From: Desulfonatronovibrio hydrogenovorans DSM 9292
GTDB taxonomy: Bacteria; Desulfobacterota; Desulfovibrionia; Desulfovibrionales; Desulfonatronovibrionaceae
Length of the DNA: 64,000 nucleotides
Reading direction: 5' to 3'
Assembly (NCBI RefSeq): GCF_000686525.1
Contig: NZ_JMKT01000001.1
Coordinates: 49,962 to 113,961, forward strand
Shown here: one piece after another, positions 565-5,960 of the stretch
Position numbering within the stretch: position 1 is the stretch's first letter
Layout: each line of letters starts with the position of its first letter
Translations under genes and position numbers: made by a program
The notes under the pieces: generated by a model
The model's database searches: none
Told to the model about the DNA's origin: nothing
The model's input: the letters and a program-made list of their open reading frames with translations, nothing else

Positions 565-736
565 ACAGACCTGCAAAGGATCAACCCTTAGTGTCCAGAC
601 AGTGCACCAAAGGATAAAATTTCAATCTACCCATTGACTTTTTCTATGGAATATTCTGTTTTATATTCAATGCGCCAATATGTTTGTCTCAGGTTCTTTA
701 TAACCCTGCGACAGTACTCCTTAAGGAGGGTTGCTT
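565..736 (+). promoter_or_regulatory. Leader/promoter region of the selenopeptide locus
   Basis: This A+T-rich gap lies between the oxidoreductase stop and the selenopeptide start. It holds a TTGACT hexamer at 634-639 and TATATT at 662-667, but the spacing (22 nt) is not optimal, so the promoter is only suggested. A perfect Shine-Dalgarno AAGGAGG at 723-729 lies 7 nt before the ATG at 737 and is the strongest ribosome site seen in this part of the window. Confidence 0.4.
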
Positions 737-1030
737 ATGAAAAATGATGATCTGAAAAAAATGCTGACCACCATCTGCCTGACCGGACTTCTGGCCGGCT
801 CAGGCATTGGAATATCAGCATGCAATGCCAGCGGATGAGGATCTTCCAACAGCAATGCGGTCGGCAATGCCAATGGAAGCGGCTGAGGAGCAACCAACGG
901 AGACGCAGGTAGCGCTCCAGCAGGAAGCGGTTGAGGTGCAACTGACATCGGTGCCGGGGGCACCGATGATAGTGACCAGGAACCCAAGCCAACTCCCGCA
1001 CCCAGCGGTTGAGGCGGAGGCTCCAATTAG
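737..1030 (+). CDS. sbtA: Selenocysteine-rich RiPP precursor peptide with four in-frame TGA (Sec) codons
   Basis: ATG at 737 is preceded by AAGGAGG. The frame runs to TAG at 1028-1030 only if TGA at 836, 884, 932 and 1010 is read as selenocysteine, giving 97 residues with Sec at 34, 50, 66 and 92. All four TGA codons have the same context, Ser-Gly-Sec-Gly, written with different synonymous codons (agc gga / agc ggc / agc ggt), which argues for protein-level selection. Residues 1-33 form a leader: MKNDDLKKML, then a hydrophobic Gly-rich stretch ending ISACNASG, which resembles a lipobox. The rest is a low-complexity Gly/Ser/Asn/Ala/Pro core. Each TGA is followed by a SECIS-like hairpin (listed separately). 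The next gene is a radical SAM/SPASM maturase. The pairing fits the SbtA/SbtM thio(seleno)oxazole RiPP family as I remember it; the name is recalled, the repeats and hairpins are seen. Confidence 0.85.
844..878 (+). promoter_or_regulatory. SECIS-like hairpin 1 for TGA 836-838
   Basis: An outer stem of 5 bp (TTCCA 844-848 with TGGAA 874-878) encloses a symmetric internal loop. An inner stem then pairs GCAATGC 852-858 with GCAATGC 864-870, with one A-A mismatch. The apical loop is GGTCG, and its GGTC matches the apical loop of the E. coli fdhF SECIS as I remember it. The hairpin begins 5 nt (outer) or 13 nt (inner) after the TGA. Confidence 0.7.
899..918 (+). promoter_or_regulatory. SECIS-like hairpin 2 for TGA 884-886
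   Basis: GGAG 899-902 pairs with CTCC 915-918 and CGC 904-906 with GCG 912-914, with a single bulged A at 903 and the loop AGGTA at 907-911. A GG-containing loop and a bulge on the 5' arm are typical of bacterial SECIS elements. The hairpin begins 12 nt after the TGA. Confidence 0.65.
946..968 (+). promoter_or_regulatory. SECIS-like hairpin 3 for TGA 932-934
   Basis: This is a perfect 10-bp inverted repeat, CATCGGTGCC (946-955) with GGCACCGATG (959-968), around a GGG loop. It starts 11 nt after the TGA, the same distance I remember for the upper stem of E. coli fdhF. It is the most stable of the four. Confidence 0.75.
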
Positions 1031-1102: not shown

Positions 1103-2701
1103 ATGCCGGACAAAAATACCCTAGAAACAGCCTGCCCATCCTGCCGGGCAATACTGGGCCAGGACGCGTGGTCTCAGGTCTGTGCCCGATATCTCCTTGA
1201 CAGCCCTGATGATTTTCCTGATTTCCTGGACCAGCTTGAAACCCTTCCTCCGGGCCTAGCTTTTATTCCGGACCTGGCCAGGCTTGAGCTGGCAGTGGCC
1301 AGGATAGCCGAATGTATTCCAGCTGAACCTGTGGGCAGTCATGATGTAAACACCTGCCTTGAACTGCTGGATCTTGACTGGTCCGGCCTCTGCTCCCTGG
1401 TAAAAAACAGAAACAGGGAGAAAACCAGTCCACCCAGAAACATCAAGGAAAAGGTCCTGGTGTGGAAACAGGGTGATGAAATTCTATTCAGGCCGGCAAC
1501 TGCCAATGATCTTCTGGCCCTGAAGCTGGTCCTGGAGAACATAAACATCTCTGAAGCAGCAAAAATTGCCAACCGCCCTTCTTCTTATATCTGGCCGGTG
1601 ATCAATGAAGCCAGGCGTAATGGCATCCTGGTGGGGGAAAAAACCAGAATAGCCAGAGACCCTGAAGTATTTGAAGTCAAATCCCACCTTGCCCCCAAAT
1701 ATCAGCAAGCAGATGTGTTCACCCTGCAGTGGCACATAACTCAGGCCTGTGATTTAAATTGCAAACATTGCTACGGCAGGGAAAGCCGGAATCATCTGGA
1801 CCTGGACAGTGCCTTGAGGATACTGGATGAATTCCAGCACTTCTGTAAAAACAAGAATGTCCATGGCCAGGTCAGCCTGACCGGGGGTAATCCACTTCTT
1901 CACCCTGATCTGGAAACAATCCATGCAGCAGCTTCAGGCATGGGCTTTACAGTAGGCATCCTGGGCAATCCCACTTCAGAAGATCAGCTGAAAAAGCTGC
2001 TGAAAAAAGGACCGATCTCCTTTTTTCAGGTCAGTCTGGAAGGCCAGGAAGAACACAATGACTATATCCGCGGCCAAGGACATTATAAAAAAGTCCTGGG
2101 GTTTTTAGATGTCTTGAAAAAACTGGATATATACTCCATGGTTATGCTCACCCTGACCAGGGCCAATGCAGGCCAGGTCCTTTGCCTGGCCCGGGAGATC
2201 CAGGACAGGGCTGACCTCTTCACCTTCAACCGGTTGTCAATGGTGGGGAGTGGAGCTCATCTGACTCCGGCTGGGCAGGATGAGTTCAATGAACTTCTGG
2301 CCGACTACCAGGAGCAGGCCAGAACCATGTCAGTCATGGGATTCAAGGACAATCTGCTTAATCTTTTCAGGTTCAGGCATGGACGCCAGCTATTCGGCGG
2401 CTGCACCGGTTATGGGTGCGGCGCAGCCTTTAATTTTGTTTCCGTGCTTTGCGACGGAGAGGTTCACGCCTGCAGGAAATTTCCCTCCAGGCTGGGCAGT
2501 ATTTATGATAACAGCCTGGAACAGATTTATGATTCCCAAGTTGCCGCTAAATACAGGAAAGGATCAAAAGGGTGTGTTGGCTGCGCCATCAGACATGTCT
2601 GCGGAGGATGCCTGGCAGTGACCTACAGCCATGGCCTGGACATATTCCAGGACCGTGACCCCTATTGCTGGATGAACCAGAGCCAGGAGAAGTTCAGATA
2701 A
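1103..2701 (+). CDS. sbtM: Radical SAM/SPASM peptide maturase (SbtM-like, thio(seleno)oxazole type)
   Basis: The 532-residue protein has the radical SAM motif CDLNCKHC (Cys 216, 220, 223), then SLTGGNPLLHP, the usual GGEP-like region that contacts SAM. Its C-terminal SPASM-type Cys set includes GCTGYGCG, a Cys in the ACRKFPSRLG segment, GCVGCAIRHVCGGC and a last PYC, enough for two auxiliary iron-sulfur clusters. The first ~210 residues are a long extension: a CPSC motif near residue 11, then FIPDLARLELA, which resembles the DUF2063/HvfC-type precursor-binding fold, then a winged-helix-like segment near 130-180 that may be the recognition element. The enzyme should act in the cytosol on the preceding selenopeptide, perhaps forming heterocycles at Cys/Sec. 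The start codon follows a run of A with no clear Shine-Dalgarno, so expression may be low or coupled. It is followed one base later by a hydroxylase gene. Confidence 0.85.
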   Translation: MPDKNTLETACPSCRAILGQDAWSQVCARYLLDSPDDFPDFLDQLETLPPGLAFIPDLARLELAVARIAECIPAEPVGSHDVNTCLELLDLDWSGLCSLVKNRNREKTSPPRNIKEKVLVWKQGDEILFRPATANDLLALKLVLENINISEAAKIANRPSSYIWPVINEARRNGILVGEKTRIARDPEVFEVKSHLAPKYQQADVFTLQWHITQACDLNCKHCYGRESRNHLDLDSALRILDEFQHFCKNKNVHGQVSLTGGNPLLHPDLETIHAAASGMGFTVGILGNPTSEDQLKKLLKKGPISFFQVSLEGQEEHNDYIRGQGHYKKVLGFLDVLKKLDIYSMVMLTLTRANAGQVLCLAREIQDRADLFTFNRLSMVGSGAHLTPAGQDEFNELLADYQEQARTMSVMGFKDNLLNLFRFRHGRQLFGGCTGYGCGAAFNFVSVLCDGEVHACRKFPSRLGSIYDNSLEQIYDSQVAAKYRKGSKGCVGCAIRHVCGGCLAVTYSHGLDIFQDRDPYCWMNQSQEKFR

Positions 2702-2702
2702 A

Positions 2703-3512
2703 GTGAACATGCTGCTCATGGATCAGGAGCTGGTCATCAGACTCAGCTTTTTTCTAGGGATTTTTTCAATTATGGCCCTGTGGGAAAACAGATATCCCAG
2801 ACGAAAGCTGACCCAGCCAAAGTGGAAAAGATGGCTCAACAACCTGGGCCTGACCCTGTTCAATTCTGTTCTGCTCAGGATTCTCTTCCCTGTGGCTGCA
2901 GTAGGTGTAGCCATCCTGGCCCAGAACAATCAGTGGGGGCTGTTCCAGCAGCTGGCTGTTCACCAGATCCTGGCCGGAATTGTATCCATAATCATCCTTG
3001 ATTTTGCCATTTATTCCCAGCACCTTATTTTCCATAAGGTTCCCATTTTGTGGCGCCTGCACCGGATGCACCACACTGACCTGGATATTGACGTGACCAC
3101 CGGGGCAAGGTTTCACCCGGTTGAAATCATTCTGTCCATGCTCATCAAGATCGGGATTGTTCTGGCCCTGGGAGCTCCGGCCTGGTCTGTGGTTGTTTTT
3201 GAGGTTATCCTCAATGCCACGTCCATGTTCAATCACAGCAATGCATACCTAAAGGCTTCCATTGACCGTTTCCTGAGGCTCATGGTGGTGACCCCGGACA
3301 TGCACCGGGTCCACCATTCTGTGCTCATCAAAGAGACAGACAGCAATTACGGTTTTAACTTTCCCTGGTGGGACCGGCTGCTGGGAACCTACACCGATCA
3401 GCCTAAAGCTGGACATGATAAAATGACCATTGGCCTGGCCAACTACCGTGATCCAAAATGGCTCAGGCTGGAATGGATGCTTTTCACTCCTTTTGCCCGC
3501 TGGTATCGCTAA
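2703..3512 (+). CDS. Sterol desaturase / fatty acid hydroxylase superfamily membrane protein
   Basis: The 269-residue integral membrane protein has the di-iron histidine boxes of this superfamily: SQHLIFH, then LHRMHH, then a HRVHH box near residue 205. Several hydrophobic spans lie around and between them. Family members use O2 to hydroxylate or desaturate lipids, sterols or alkylglycerols. The substrate here cannot be told from sequence. The gene begins at GTG 2703, one base after the radical SAM stop (ATG 2709 is an alternative), so it is almost certainly cotranscribed with the maturase. An oxygenase-type enzyme tied to a selenopeptide maturase in a probable anaerobe is unexpected. It may be a tailoring or membrane partner, or simply share the transcript. 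Confidence 0.85.
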   Translation: MNMLLMDQELVIRLSFFLGIFSIMALWENRYPRRKLTQPKWKRWLNNLGLTLFNSVLLRILFPVAAVGVAILAQNNQWGLFQQLAVHQILAGIVSIIILDFAIYSQHLIFHKVPILWRLHRMHHTDLDIDVTTGARFHPVEIILSMLIKIGIVLALGAPAWSVVVFEVILNATSMFNHSNAYLKASIDRFLRLMVVTPDMHRVHHSVLIKETDSNYGFNFPWWDRLLGTYTDQPKAGHDKMTIGLANYRDPKWLRLEWMLFTPFARWYR

Positions 3513-3695: not shown

Positions 3696-4352
3696 ATGAG
3701 CTTTATCACTTTCATCCAGTTCAACTCCGGGCTGATCCTGGAATACACCCTGAACCACATTTCCCTGGTCCTGACTGTCCTGGTTTTTTCTCTGGGCCTG
3801 TGGATCTTCACCGGTCTGGTCATCAGCAGGTATGACCGGCTGGCCGGGACAATCATCAGCCTGAGCAACATACTTTTCTGCATCCCCAGCATATCCCTGT
3901 TCGGCCTGCTCATGACCGTTCCAGGTCTTGGACTGGGCCGGAGGACAGCGGTCCTGGTTCTGGTGCTTTATGCCATGATGCCCCTGGTCCGCAGCGTTTA
4001 TCTGGGCATCAAATCCGTAGATCAAAGTGTCATGGAAGCCGGAAAGGGCATGGGCATGACCCGGACCCAGATATTGTTCAGAATCCAGATACCCATGGCC
4101 TGGCCCATGGTCTTTACAGGCATCCGGGTTTCTCTGGTCCTGATCACCGGCATTGCCACCATGGCCACCTTTATCGGGGAAAAAAACCTCGGCCGGCTCA
4201 TCCATCAGGGCATTACCAGAGGCAATGCTGATATGATTATTGCCGGAGCAATCATGGTCTCCATAATCGCCCTGGCCCTGGACTTTATCATGGGACGCAT
4301 TGAAAAAAGGATCATTTCGCCCGGACTGAGATACCAGGCTGGTGACAGGTAA
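3696..4352 (+). CDS. Osmoprotectant (betaine/choline-type) ABC transporter permease
   Basis: The 218-residue protein has about five to six membrane spans and the binding-protein-dependent permease loop EAGKGMGMTRTQILFRIQIP, which docks on the ATPase. The closest relatives by pattern are OpuBB/OpuCB and OsmW/OsmY permeases. It opens a four-gene set (permease, ATPase, permease, binding protein) on the plus strand with short or overlapping junctions. The role is uptake of compatible solutes such as glycine betaine or carnitine; exact substrate unknown. Confidence 0.9.
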   Translation: MSFITFIQFNSGLILEYTLNHISLVLTVLVFSLGLWIFTGLVISRYDRLAGTIISLSNILFCIPSISLFGLLMTVPGLGLGRRTAVLVLVLYAMMPLVRSVYLGIKSVDQSVMEAGKGMGMTRTQILFRIQIPMAWPMVFTGIRVSLVLITGIATMATFIGEKNLGRLIHQGITRGNADMIIAGAIMVSIIALALDFIMGRIEKRIISPGLRYQAGDR

Positions 4353-4353
4353 C

Positions 4354-5319
4354 ATGATAGTACTGGACAAGATATGCAAGACCTTCCCCGGAAGTCGTAC
4401 TCCAGCGGTTGACCAGATCAGTTTTCAGGTCAACCAGGGCAATATCTGTGTGTTTGTCGGTCCTTCCGGATGCGGCAAGACAACTATCCTGCGCATGATC
4501 AACCGCCTGGAAGAGCCGGACAGTGGTCAGATAAGCGTCAACAACCGTAATATTAAAAATCTGAATCCTGATATTCTGCGCAGGACCATGGGATATGTAA
4601 TTCAGCAGATCGGGCTGCTGCCCCATAAGACCATTGAACAAAACGTCTCCCTGGTTCCGGAATTGCTGGGCTGGTCAAAAAGCAAAACCGCGGCCAGGGT
4701 CCTGGAACTGCTGAGCCTGGTTGGGCTGGATCCCGATCAGGTCAGACATAAGTATCCCCATCAGCTCAGTGGAGGGCAGTCCCAGCGGGTGGGTGTGGCC
4801 AGGGCCATGGCTGCTGACCCGCCCATAATGCTCATGGACGAGCCTTTTGGTGCAGTGGACCCCATTGTCCGGGTCCATCTTCAGGATGAATTCATACGTC
4901 TGCAGCAGAAACTGAAAAAAACCATCTGCTTTGTTACCCACGACATCAACGAGGCCATCAAGATGGGCGATTACCTGATAGTTCTCAACCAGGGCCGCCT
5001 CATCCAGATGGGAACTCCCATTGAAGTTTTAACTGAACCAGCTGATGCCTTTGTCTTGGACCTGCTGGGCAATGACCGCGGGGTCAAGATCCTGGATCTG
5101 ACCAGGTCCGAAACCCTGATGGAGCCCCTGGACCAGACCCCGGAAAATCTCGACCCATGCCTGGTTCAGGCTCTTGAACCGGTCAAAATCGCCCTGGAGC
5201 TGATGATGAAGAACAACACCGACCAGGTCGGGGTGTGCAGGAACGGACAGCTGGTTGGCATTCTCAGCTGGAACAGGATCAAACAGTACATCAACCGGGT
5301 CAGCGGAGAAGGAACATGA
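4354..5319 (+). CDS. Osmoprotectant ABC transporter ATP-binding protein with CBS domain
   Basis: The 321-residue ATPase has Walker A GPSGCGKTT, Q-loop, signature LSGGQSQRVGVARA, Walker B IMLMDEP and H-loop VTHD. After residue ~235 comes a C-terminal regulatory segment ending with a CBS-like unit (NTDQVGVCRNGQLVGILSW), typical of OpuCA/ProV-type transporters that sense ionic strength. I chose ATG 4354, two bases after the permease stop; GTG 4342 would overlap the permease by 11 bases. Its stop overlaps the next permease ATG. Confidence 0.92.
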   Translation: MIVLDKICKTFPGSRTPAVDQISFQVNQGNICVFVGPSGCGKTTILRMINRLEEPDSGQISVNNRNIKNLNPDILRRTMGYVIQQIGLLPHKTIEQNVSLVPELLGWSKSKTAARVLELLSLVGLDPDQVRHKYPHQLSGGQSQRVGVARAMAADPPIMLMDEPFGAVDPIVRVHLQDEFIRLQQKLKKTICFVTHDINEAIKMGDYLIVLNQGRLIQMGTPIEVLTEPADAFVLDLLGNDRGVKILDLTRSETLMEPLDQTPENLDPCLVQALEPVKIALELMMKNNTDQVGVCRNGQLVGILSWNRIKQYINRVSGEGT

Positions 5320-5960
5320 ACTTTGACATGAACCTGTTCATGCACGCCATGACCAGTCAGGCTCCGCAATACCTCATCGAACACCTGCAACTGGTCATCA
5401 TTCCTCTGGGCATTGCCGTACTCATCTCTTTGCCTGTGGGGATCATCCTGACCAGACCTGGCCAGGCCCATCTTGCCGATAGAATCATGATCCTGTTCAA
5501 CGCTGGCCAGACCATCCCCCCTTTAGCGGTGATTGCTGTCTTTTTTCCCTTTCTGGGCCTTGGTTATGGTCCGGCCATCCTGGCCCTGACCATTTACGCC
5601 CTCCTGCCCATAGCCCGAAACACCATTACCGCTATTTCAGCTGTTCCCCATGAAGTCAAAGAAGCTGCCCGAGGCATGGGCATGACTCCAGGGCAGATCC
5701 TGTTCCGGGTGGAACTGCCCCTGGGCGTTCCAACCATCATGTCCGGAATCAGGACCTCGGCAGTGCTCACAGTGAGTACTGCTGTTCTGGCCGCACTGGT
5801 GGGAGGCAAAGGCATGGGTGCAATAATCTTTGCCGGAATCAACTTTTTCCGGGCTGAACTGATCCTGGCCGGGACAATATTCATCGGCCTGATGGCTATA
5901 GCCTTTGAGCGGTTCATTACCCTGCTTGAACGGCTTTTGGCTCCGGCCCATTTGAAATAA
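5316..5960 (+). CDS. Osmoprotectant ABC transporter permease, second subunit
   Basis: The 214-residue protein has hydrophobic spans and the loop EAARGMGMTPGQILFRVELP that contacts the ATPase. ATG 5316 overlaps the ATPase stop as ATGA and is preceded by GGAGAAGGA, so translation is probably coupled. It partners the permease at 3696 as a heterodimeric channel of the OpuC/OsmYW type. Confidence 0.92.
   Translation: MNFDMNLFMHAMTSQAPQYLIEHLQLVIIPLGIAVLISLPVGIILTRPGQAHLADRIMILFNAGQTIPPLAVIAVFFPFLGLGYGPAILALTIYALLPIARNTITAISAVPHEVKEAARGMGMTPGQILFRVELPLGVPTIMSGIRTSAVLTVSTAVLAALVGGKGMGAIIFAGINFFRAELILAGTIFIGLMAIAFERFITLLERLLAPAHLK

Follow-up and report, generated by a model that had tools for sequence, protein, structure and literature searches.

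We analysed a window of 64,000 nucleotides (nt; the whole stretch of DNA under study) from Desulfonatronovibrio hydrogenovorans DSM 9292, contig NZ_JMKT01000001.1, and found in it a small gene, sbtA, with four in-frame TGA codons predicted to encode selenocysteine (Sec, U). The gene lies directly before sbtM, which encodes a radical SAM/SPASM maturase. The two genes and the signals within sbtA are as follows, L097 being the closest relative that also has four Sec codons.

723..729, + strand: Shine-Dalgarno-like AAGGAGG, from the sequence
737..1030, + strand: sbtA, precursor of 97 residues with TGA as Sec, ATG at 737 and TAG at 1028-1030
836..838, + strand: UGA, predicted Sec34 in S-G-U-G, aligned to a UGA in L097
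884..886, + strand: UGA, predicted Sec50 in S-G-U-G, aligned to a UGA in L097
932..934, + strand: UGA, predicted Sec66 in S-G-U-G, aligned to a UGA in L097
1010..1012, + strand: UGA, predicted Sec92 in S-G-U-G, aligned to a UGA in L097
1103..2701, + strand: sbtM, radical SAM/SPASM maturase of 532 residues (TIGR04082, 635.7 bits, cut-off 350)

An earlier note on this DNA, made from the letters alone, had read the frame from ATG 737 as a peptide of 97 residues with TGA at 836, 884, 932 and 1010, preceded by AAGGAGG, and all of this was found as described. Its pointer to the SbtA/SbtM family, and its placing of the gene directly before a radical SAM/SPASM maturase, were borne out by matches of both proteins above curated NCBIfam cut-offs. 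With U written as C, SbtA (P0001) scores 40.2 bits (cut-off 30.5) against TIGR04081, the SbtA family of thio(seleno)oxazole precursors of ribosomally synthesized and post-translationally modified peptides (RiPPs). The match covers residues 1-26, within the leader, and is the one SbtA leader above this cut-off in the window's genome. A Pfam search with P0001 found no match, including no known bufferin precursor domain, and a protein-database search with SbtA found none either; in our reading, database entries for genes of this kind often end at a UGA. Promoter and terminator scans gave results at chance level. The claim that each site uses different synonymous codons holds for Gly (GGA, GGC, GGT and GGT before Sec; GGA, GGA, GGT and GGC after it) and fails for Ser, which is AGC at all four. 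The SGxG context surrounds just 1 of about 93 non-UGA codons in the frame. Because SGxG is this rare elsewhere and the UGAs are conserved in L097, the presence of SGUG at all four UGAs exceeds chance, as the note had argued against chance or decay.

Of the 395 genomes sampled from the phylum, 39 contain SbtM, among them that of the window, and the closest matches named by organism are from Desulfovermiculus and from Desulfonatronovibrio metagenome-assembled genomes (MAGs), at about 58% identity. SbtA-type frames lie near SbtM in 32 of 38 whole-genome loci, and candidates were found in 68 of 80 named loci, where precursor matches were kept up to E 0.01; in the other 12 of the 80 no precursor was found. 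Removal of identical peptides and trimming of presumed UGA stops left 105 unique peptides, the window's included; the trimming was crude, cutting 21 of the 105, of which L144 and L168 were probably cut wrongly. The set designated A5 used 66 of 80 matches. Set A4 comprised the window and 55 of the 80 loci; 14 were omitted for a match starting after residue 14, L133 for a stop, and ten unexamined loci to keep the set small (L135, L150, L154, L156, L161, L163, L165, L167, L170 and L172).

The unique peptides contain no Sec in 11 cases, one in 7, two in 33, three in 47 and four in 7 (window, L097, L051, L111, L146, L152 and L139). Four Sec is the upper end of the range found in these peptides, in line with the note's view that such peptides are rare; a 2026 review covering 119 families, most with one Sec and a small subset with two or three, lists the SbtA family with 2 (PMC13188914). 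L097 has SGUG at all four places, and all four UGAs of sbtA align to UGA in it. Between the two genes 35 of 73 codons for identical residues differ synonymously, by plain count 8 of 24 in hairpin regions and 27 of 49 outside. Unconserved S-G-x-G contexts or scattered stops would have told against the note's reading; in homologues both the contexts and the UGA places are conserved. Cys replaces Sec in some family members. At L051 two adjacent precursors lie on the minus strand (7981 and 8405), one with four SGUG sites and the other with four SGCG, the Cys one without GAGS-type spacers. Eight loci (L121, L125, L128, L141, L147, L150, L164 and L165) have the last Sec followed by UGA one residue on (SGU[SG]-UGA). 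This second UGA looks like a real stop, in which case the same codon would mean both Sec and stop within one small gene.

The note had named absence of selA, selB, selC or selD as a test of its reading, and all four are present in the window's genome: tRNA-Sec (selC, 82 bits), SelB (403.5 bits), SelA (617.6 bits) and SelD (376.9 bits; L086, G000:C8:543155-544081). The selD gene has one in-frame TGA, and SelD is probably itself a selenoprotein. Across the phylum sample selA occurs in 355 of 395 genomes as against 37 of the 39 with SbtM, no enrichment over background; the two SbtM genomes without a counted selA are G200, and G300, which was not among the matches listed.

Three aspects of the locus go beyond what the note had described: a hairpin for each UGA, an export-signal-like leader with a lipobox, and a bufferin-type partner module in the maturase. 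Each of the four UGAs of sbtA has downstream a hairpin resembling a selenocysteine insertion sequence (SECIS), with its loop at 20 or 21 nt (ranks are by energy among the 98 codon positions of the sbtA frame).

852..870, + strand: hairpin 1, loop GGUCG 20 nt past the UGA, stem with a single A-A mismatch, -6.8 kcal/mol, rank 48/98
899..918, + strand: hairpin 2, loop AGGUA, rank 15/98
946..968, + strand: hairpin 3, up to 10 pairs, rank 1/98, in a stretch that differs in L097
1025..1047, + strand: hairpin 4, 9 pairs, across the TAG stop and 3' untranslated bases, rank 9/98

A search of the window against Rfam returned no SECIS reaching the gathering score. For the first set of precursors, a few of whose UGAs are probably stops, the median best hairpin with a loop offset of 18-24 was -10.6 kcal/mol for 89 UGAs and -2.8 for 228 control codons, with an optimum at 20-21. 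By a stricter count (at least 6 pairs and a five-base loop) hairpins follow 141 of 240 UGAs, compared with 27 of 416 control codons. Several stem positions in these 141 hairpins vary in pair type (position 3, for example, is U-A in 77 and C-G in 51), and loop positions 2-3 are GG or GU in 135. The hairpin-encoded residues A[GV][GS] occur after 122 of 158 UGAs versus 1 of 40 core Cys, and for 51 of 60 last UGAs the hairpin extends beyond the final sense codon, which we take to mean that the spacer sequence between Sec sites would be set by the RNA more than by the peptide.

The N-terminal part of SbtA has two predicted features.

737..820, + strand: leader, residues 1-28, charged at the start and then apolar; predicted to act in export and in recognition by the maturase
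812..823, + strand: lipobox I-S-A-C with Cys29, the predicted lipid attachment site by a Prosite-like rule

All 105 peptides contain, within residues 6-45, a run of at least 10 residues with no D, E, K, R, H, N, Q, P or U (median 20), and in the mean profile a charged start precedes this apolar run. By the Prosite-like rule a lipobox is present in 51 of the 105, whereas residues 15-36 shuffled 500 times gave 15.6 on average and 25 at most; an earlier version of the rule gave 49. Cys is at position 29 in 36 of these 51 peptides, and the L097 lipobox is V-T-A-C29. SbtA itself has, as judged by this motif rule, the arrangement expected of a lipoprotein, in which a charged start and an apolar segment lead up to the lipobox. 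In the L139 precursor near 3476 (an Olavius symbiont MAG) a UGA, counted among its four, stands at the lipobox Cys position (TLSA-UGA), either a sequencing error or a Sec in the lipobox.

The maturase is composed of a putative partner module and a radical SAM/SPASM part.

1103..1675, + strand: SbtM residues 1-191, partner module whose profile and fold relate it to DUF2063-RRE (BufC/HvfC) proteins
1748..1771, + strand: Cys216-Cys220-Cys223, CX3CX2C, within PF04055 (Pfam)

CX3CX2C is the radical SAM cluster motif. C220 and C223 are invariant and C216 is present in at least 90% of 117 SbtM sequences (alignment A1; 117 of the best 120 of 3161 matches). The AlphaFold2 model of SbtM has a predicted local distance difference test score of 89.8. 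In a fold search with the complete SbtM, matches to the radical SAM part took up the results, so we modelled the N-terminal module separately; by single sequence the window's module is below the Pfam cut-off. DUF2063-RRE proteins are the partners of MNIO enzymes that make thiooxazoles. No MNIO (PF05114) was found at E 1e-20 in the window's genome, and 11 of the 395 phylum genomes have one. These 11 and the 39 SbtM genomes do not overlap, where about one shared genome is expected, so the comparison is uninformative. In two of the six loci with a late-starting SbtM match (L068 and L070) the precursors are rich in Cys and contain just one Sec.

Downstream of sbtM lie the following genes.

2703-3512: fatty-acid-hydroxylase gene (PF04116), beginning just past sbtM; the family neighbours SbtM at 2 of 103 loci
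3696-5960: osmoprotectant ABC transporter genes, ProW/ProV-like; the first permease and the ATPase are below equivalog/subfamily cut-offs

We scanned the neighbourhoods of 103 unique SbtM loci for genes of at least 90 residues, within 4.5 kb and on the contig, judging clusters by eye. No dedicated exporter, transporter, leader protease or immunity gene recurred beside SbtM, and no recurring metal-related gene was recognised. The most recurrent neighbour family occurred at 25 loci (all four orientations) and an ABC-ATPase-like family at 8. Because no family recurs at more than 25 of the 103, the neighbours give no hint of function.

We consider it likely that sbtA encodes a four-UGA SbtA precursor, that SbtM makes seleno-oxazoles at its SGUG sites, and that the product is an exported lipoprotein binding soft metals in the envelope. 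The identity of the SbtA/SbtM pair and the Sec coding are as well founded as sequence allows. Sec would be inserted at the four UGAs, and the BufC-like module, residues 1-191, would hold SbtM to the signal-like leader. SbtM would then convert the Ser-Gly-Sec-Gly sites to seleno-oxazoles, as reported in vitro for a relative; substrates with Cys and with Sec are reported to lose four hydrogens to SbtM, the Cys product being a thiooxazole (PMC11002830). The motifs suggest that the peptide would next be exported and lipidated at Cys29. In the envelope the mature peptide may act as a soft-metal trap, a role drawn from the parallel with bufferins. Bufferin-type precursors have signal peptides and are correlated with DUF2063-RRE partners, and about 16% of one bufferin family have predicted lipoprotein signals (PMC12452194). 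Thiooxazole peptides made with a related partner protein are reported to bind copper (PMC12668002, PMC12452194).

Under the standard code the sbtA frame ends after 33 residues, and the frame shifted by one, open from 783 to 1094, gives a reading frame of 96 codons at 807-1097. The UGAs could accordingly be stops, in a decayed gene or a 33-residue peptide, or the shifted frame could be the real gene. We regard this as highly improbable, given that L097 has kept the UGAs, the SGUG contexts and the hairpins, the pattern recurs across the family, the conserved motifs sit in the Sec frame, and the window's genome has the Sec genes. The same biosynthesis could also yield a secreted selenium-containing antimicrobial or signal peptide whose leader serves SbtM only; the review labels the SbtA family selenobacteriocin in its table (PMC13188914), and the leader shows conservation like that of leader-dependent RiPPs. 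Against this stand the roughly half of the family that have a lipobox Cys near position 29 and the neighbourhoods scanned above, with their lack of a recurrent transporter, leader protease or immunity gene, and we think it quite unlikely. A use of the same exported poly-seleno peptide for redox defence, electron transfer or selenium storage rather than metals would fit the many selenoproteins that are redox proteins (PMC13188914) and the lack of metal-related genes in recognisable neighbourhood clusters; the reported copper binding argues for metals, and we judge this use unlikely as well.

Several observations weigh against the metal-binding lipoprotein that we prefer. Six of the 38 whole-genome loci are SbtM forms or contigs in which no precursor was found. 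Hairpin 1 is weak by energy, 99 of the 240 UGAs fail the stricter hairpin count, and the Mann-Whitney p of 1.6e-27 for UGA versus control hairpin energies overstates certainty owing to the kinship of the sequences. A strict lipobox is absent from 54 of the 105 precursors, and AxA sites for signal peptidase I show no enrichment (40 vs 36.3 in shuffles). Single-sequence Pfam scans show DUF2063 in 1 of 56 and NGO1945_C in 2 of 56 members. Six SbtM matches start at profile position 102-107 (G029, G181, G383, G128, G309 and G289), and SbtM may therefore be able to do without the helical half of the module. Support is at the level of sequence and computation, and metal binding by the SbtA peptide is argued by analogy.

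A wider proposal, which we put forward tentatively and would sooner doubt than affirm, is that in anaerobes SbtA/SbtM takes the place of a bufferin, as a poly-seleno-oxazole peptide anchored in the envelope and trapping soft metals or metalloids. SbtM would derive from a fusion of DUF2063-RRE, the partner chaperone of MNIO, with a radical SAM/SPASM domain, two unrelated catalysts would reach the same ring through the same recognition module acting on signal-peptide-bearing precursors, and SECIS hairpins would write the spacers. The accessible literature states no role for SbtA peptides, and with a bufferin-type module and an exported lipoprotein, if true, their function becomes testable. Enzymes of two kinds, iron oxidase and radical SAM, would then rely on one recognition module in different lineages to make the same ring. 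A 97-residue peptide needing four successive Sec insertions with hairpin-dictated spacers would also put the repeated recoding of UGA to a demanding test in nature.

The SbtA/SbtM family is already known, and the bufferin-partner-like domain in SbtM hints at the role of the peptide. The locus resembles known SbtA/SbtM RiPPs in both proteins scoring above curated cut-offs, in its SGUG core and in a precursor directly before the maturase; it differs in having four Sec where 2 are listed. The lipobox leader and the partner module may be further differences; the open-access text searched gave no statement of a partner module in SbtM or of a lipoprotein SbtA, although Lewis et al. 2021 could contain one. 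The DAG-RiPPs, RiPP-lipoprotein hybrids, likewise have a lipobox at the leader end and a modified C-terminal part, but are described for MNIO products, whereas here the peptide is Sec-based and its lipidation predicted (PMC12636315). TglHI of the 3-thiaglutamate pathway (PDB 8hi7, 8hci) differs in being a separate protein that works with an MNIO towards a different product. Bufferins and captophorins (MNIO with BufC/HvfC) share with SbtA/SbtM a homologous partner module, export-signal-like precursors and spaced single Cys/Sec-Gly sites. Thiooxazole is the reported product of both enzyme types, MNIO (PMC12538549, PMC12668002, PMC12452194) and SbtM (PMC11002830). Unlike in bufferins, a radical SAM/SPASM domain joined to the module in one protein is the catalyst here, in a genome without MNIO, and SbtA, which has no Pfam bufferin domain, has Sec in place of Cys.
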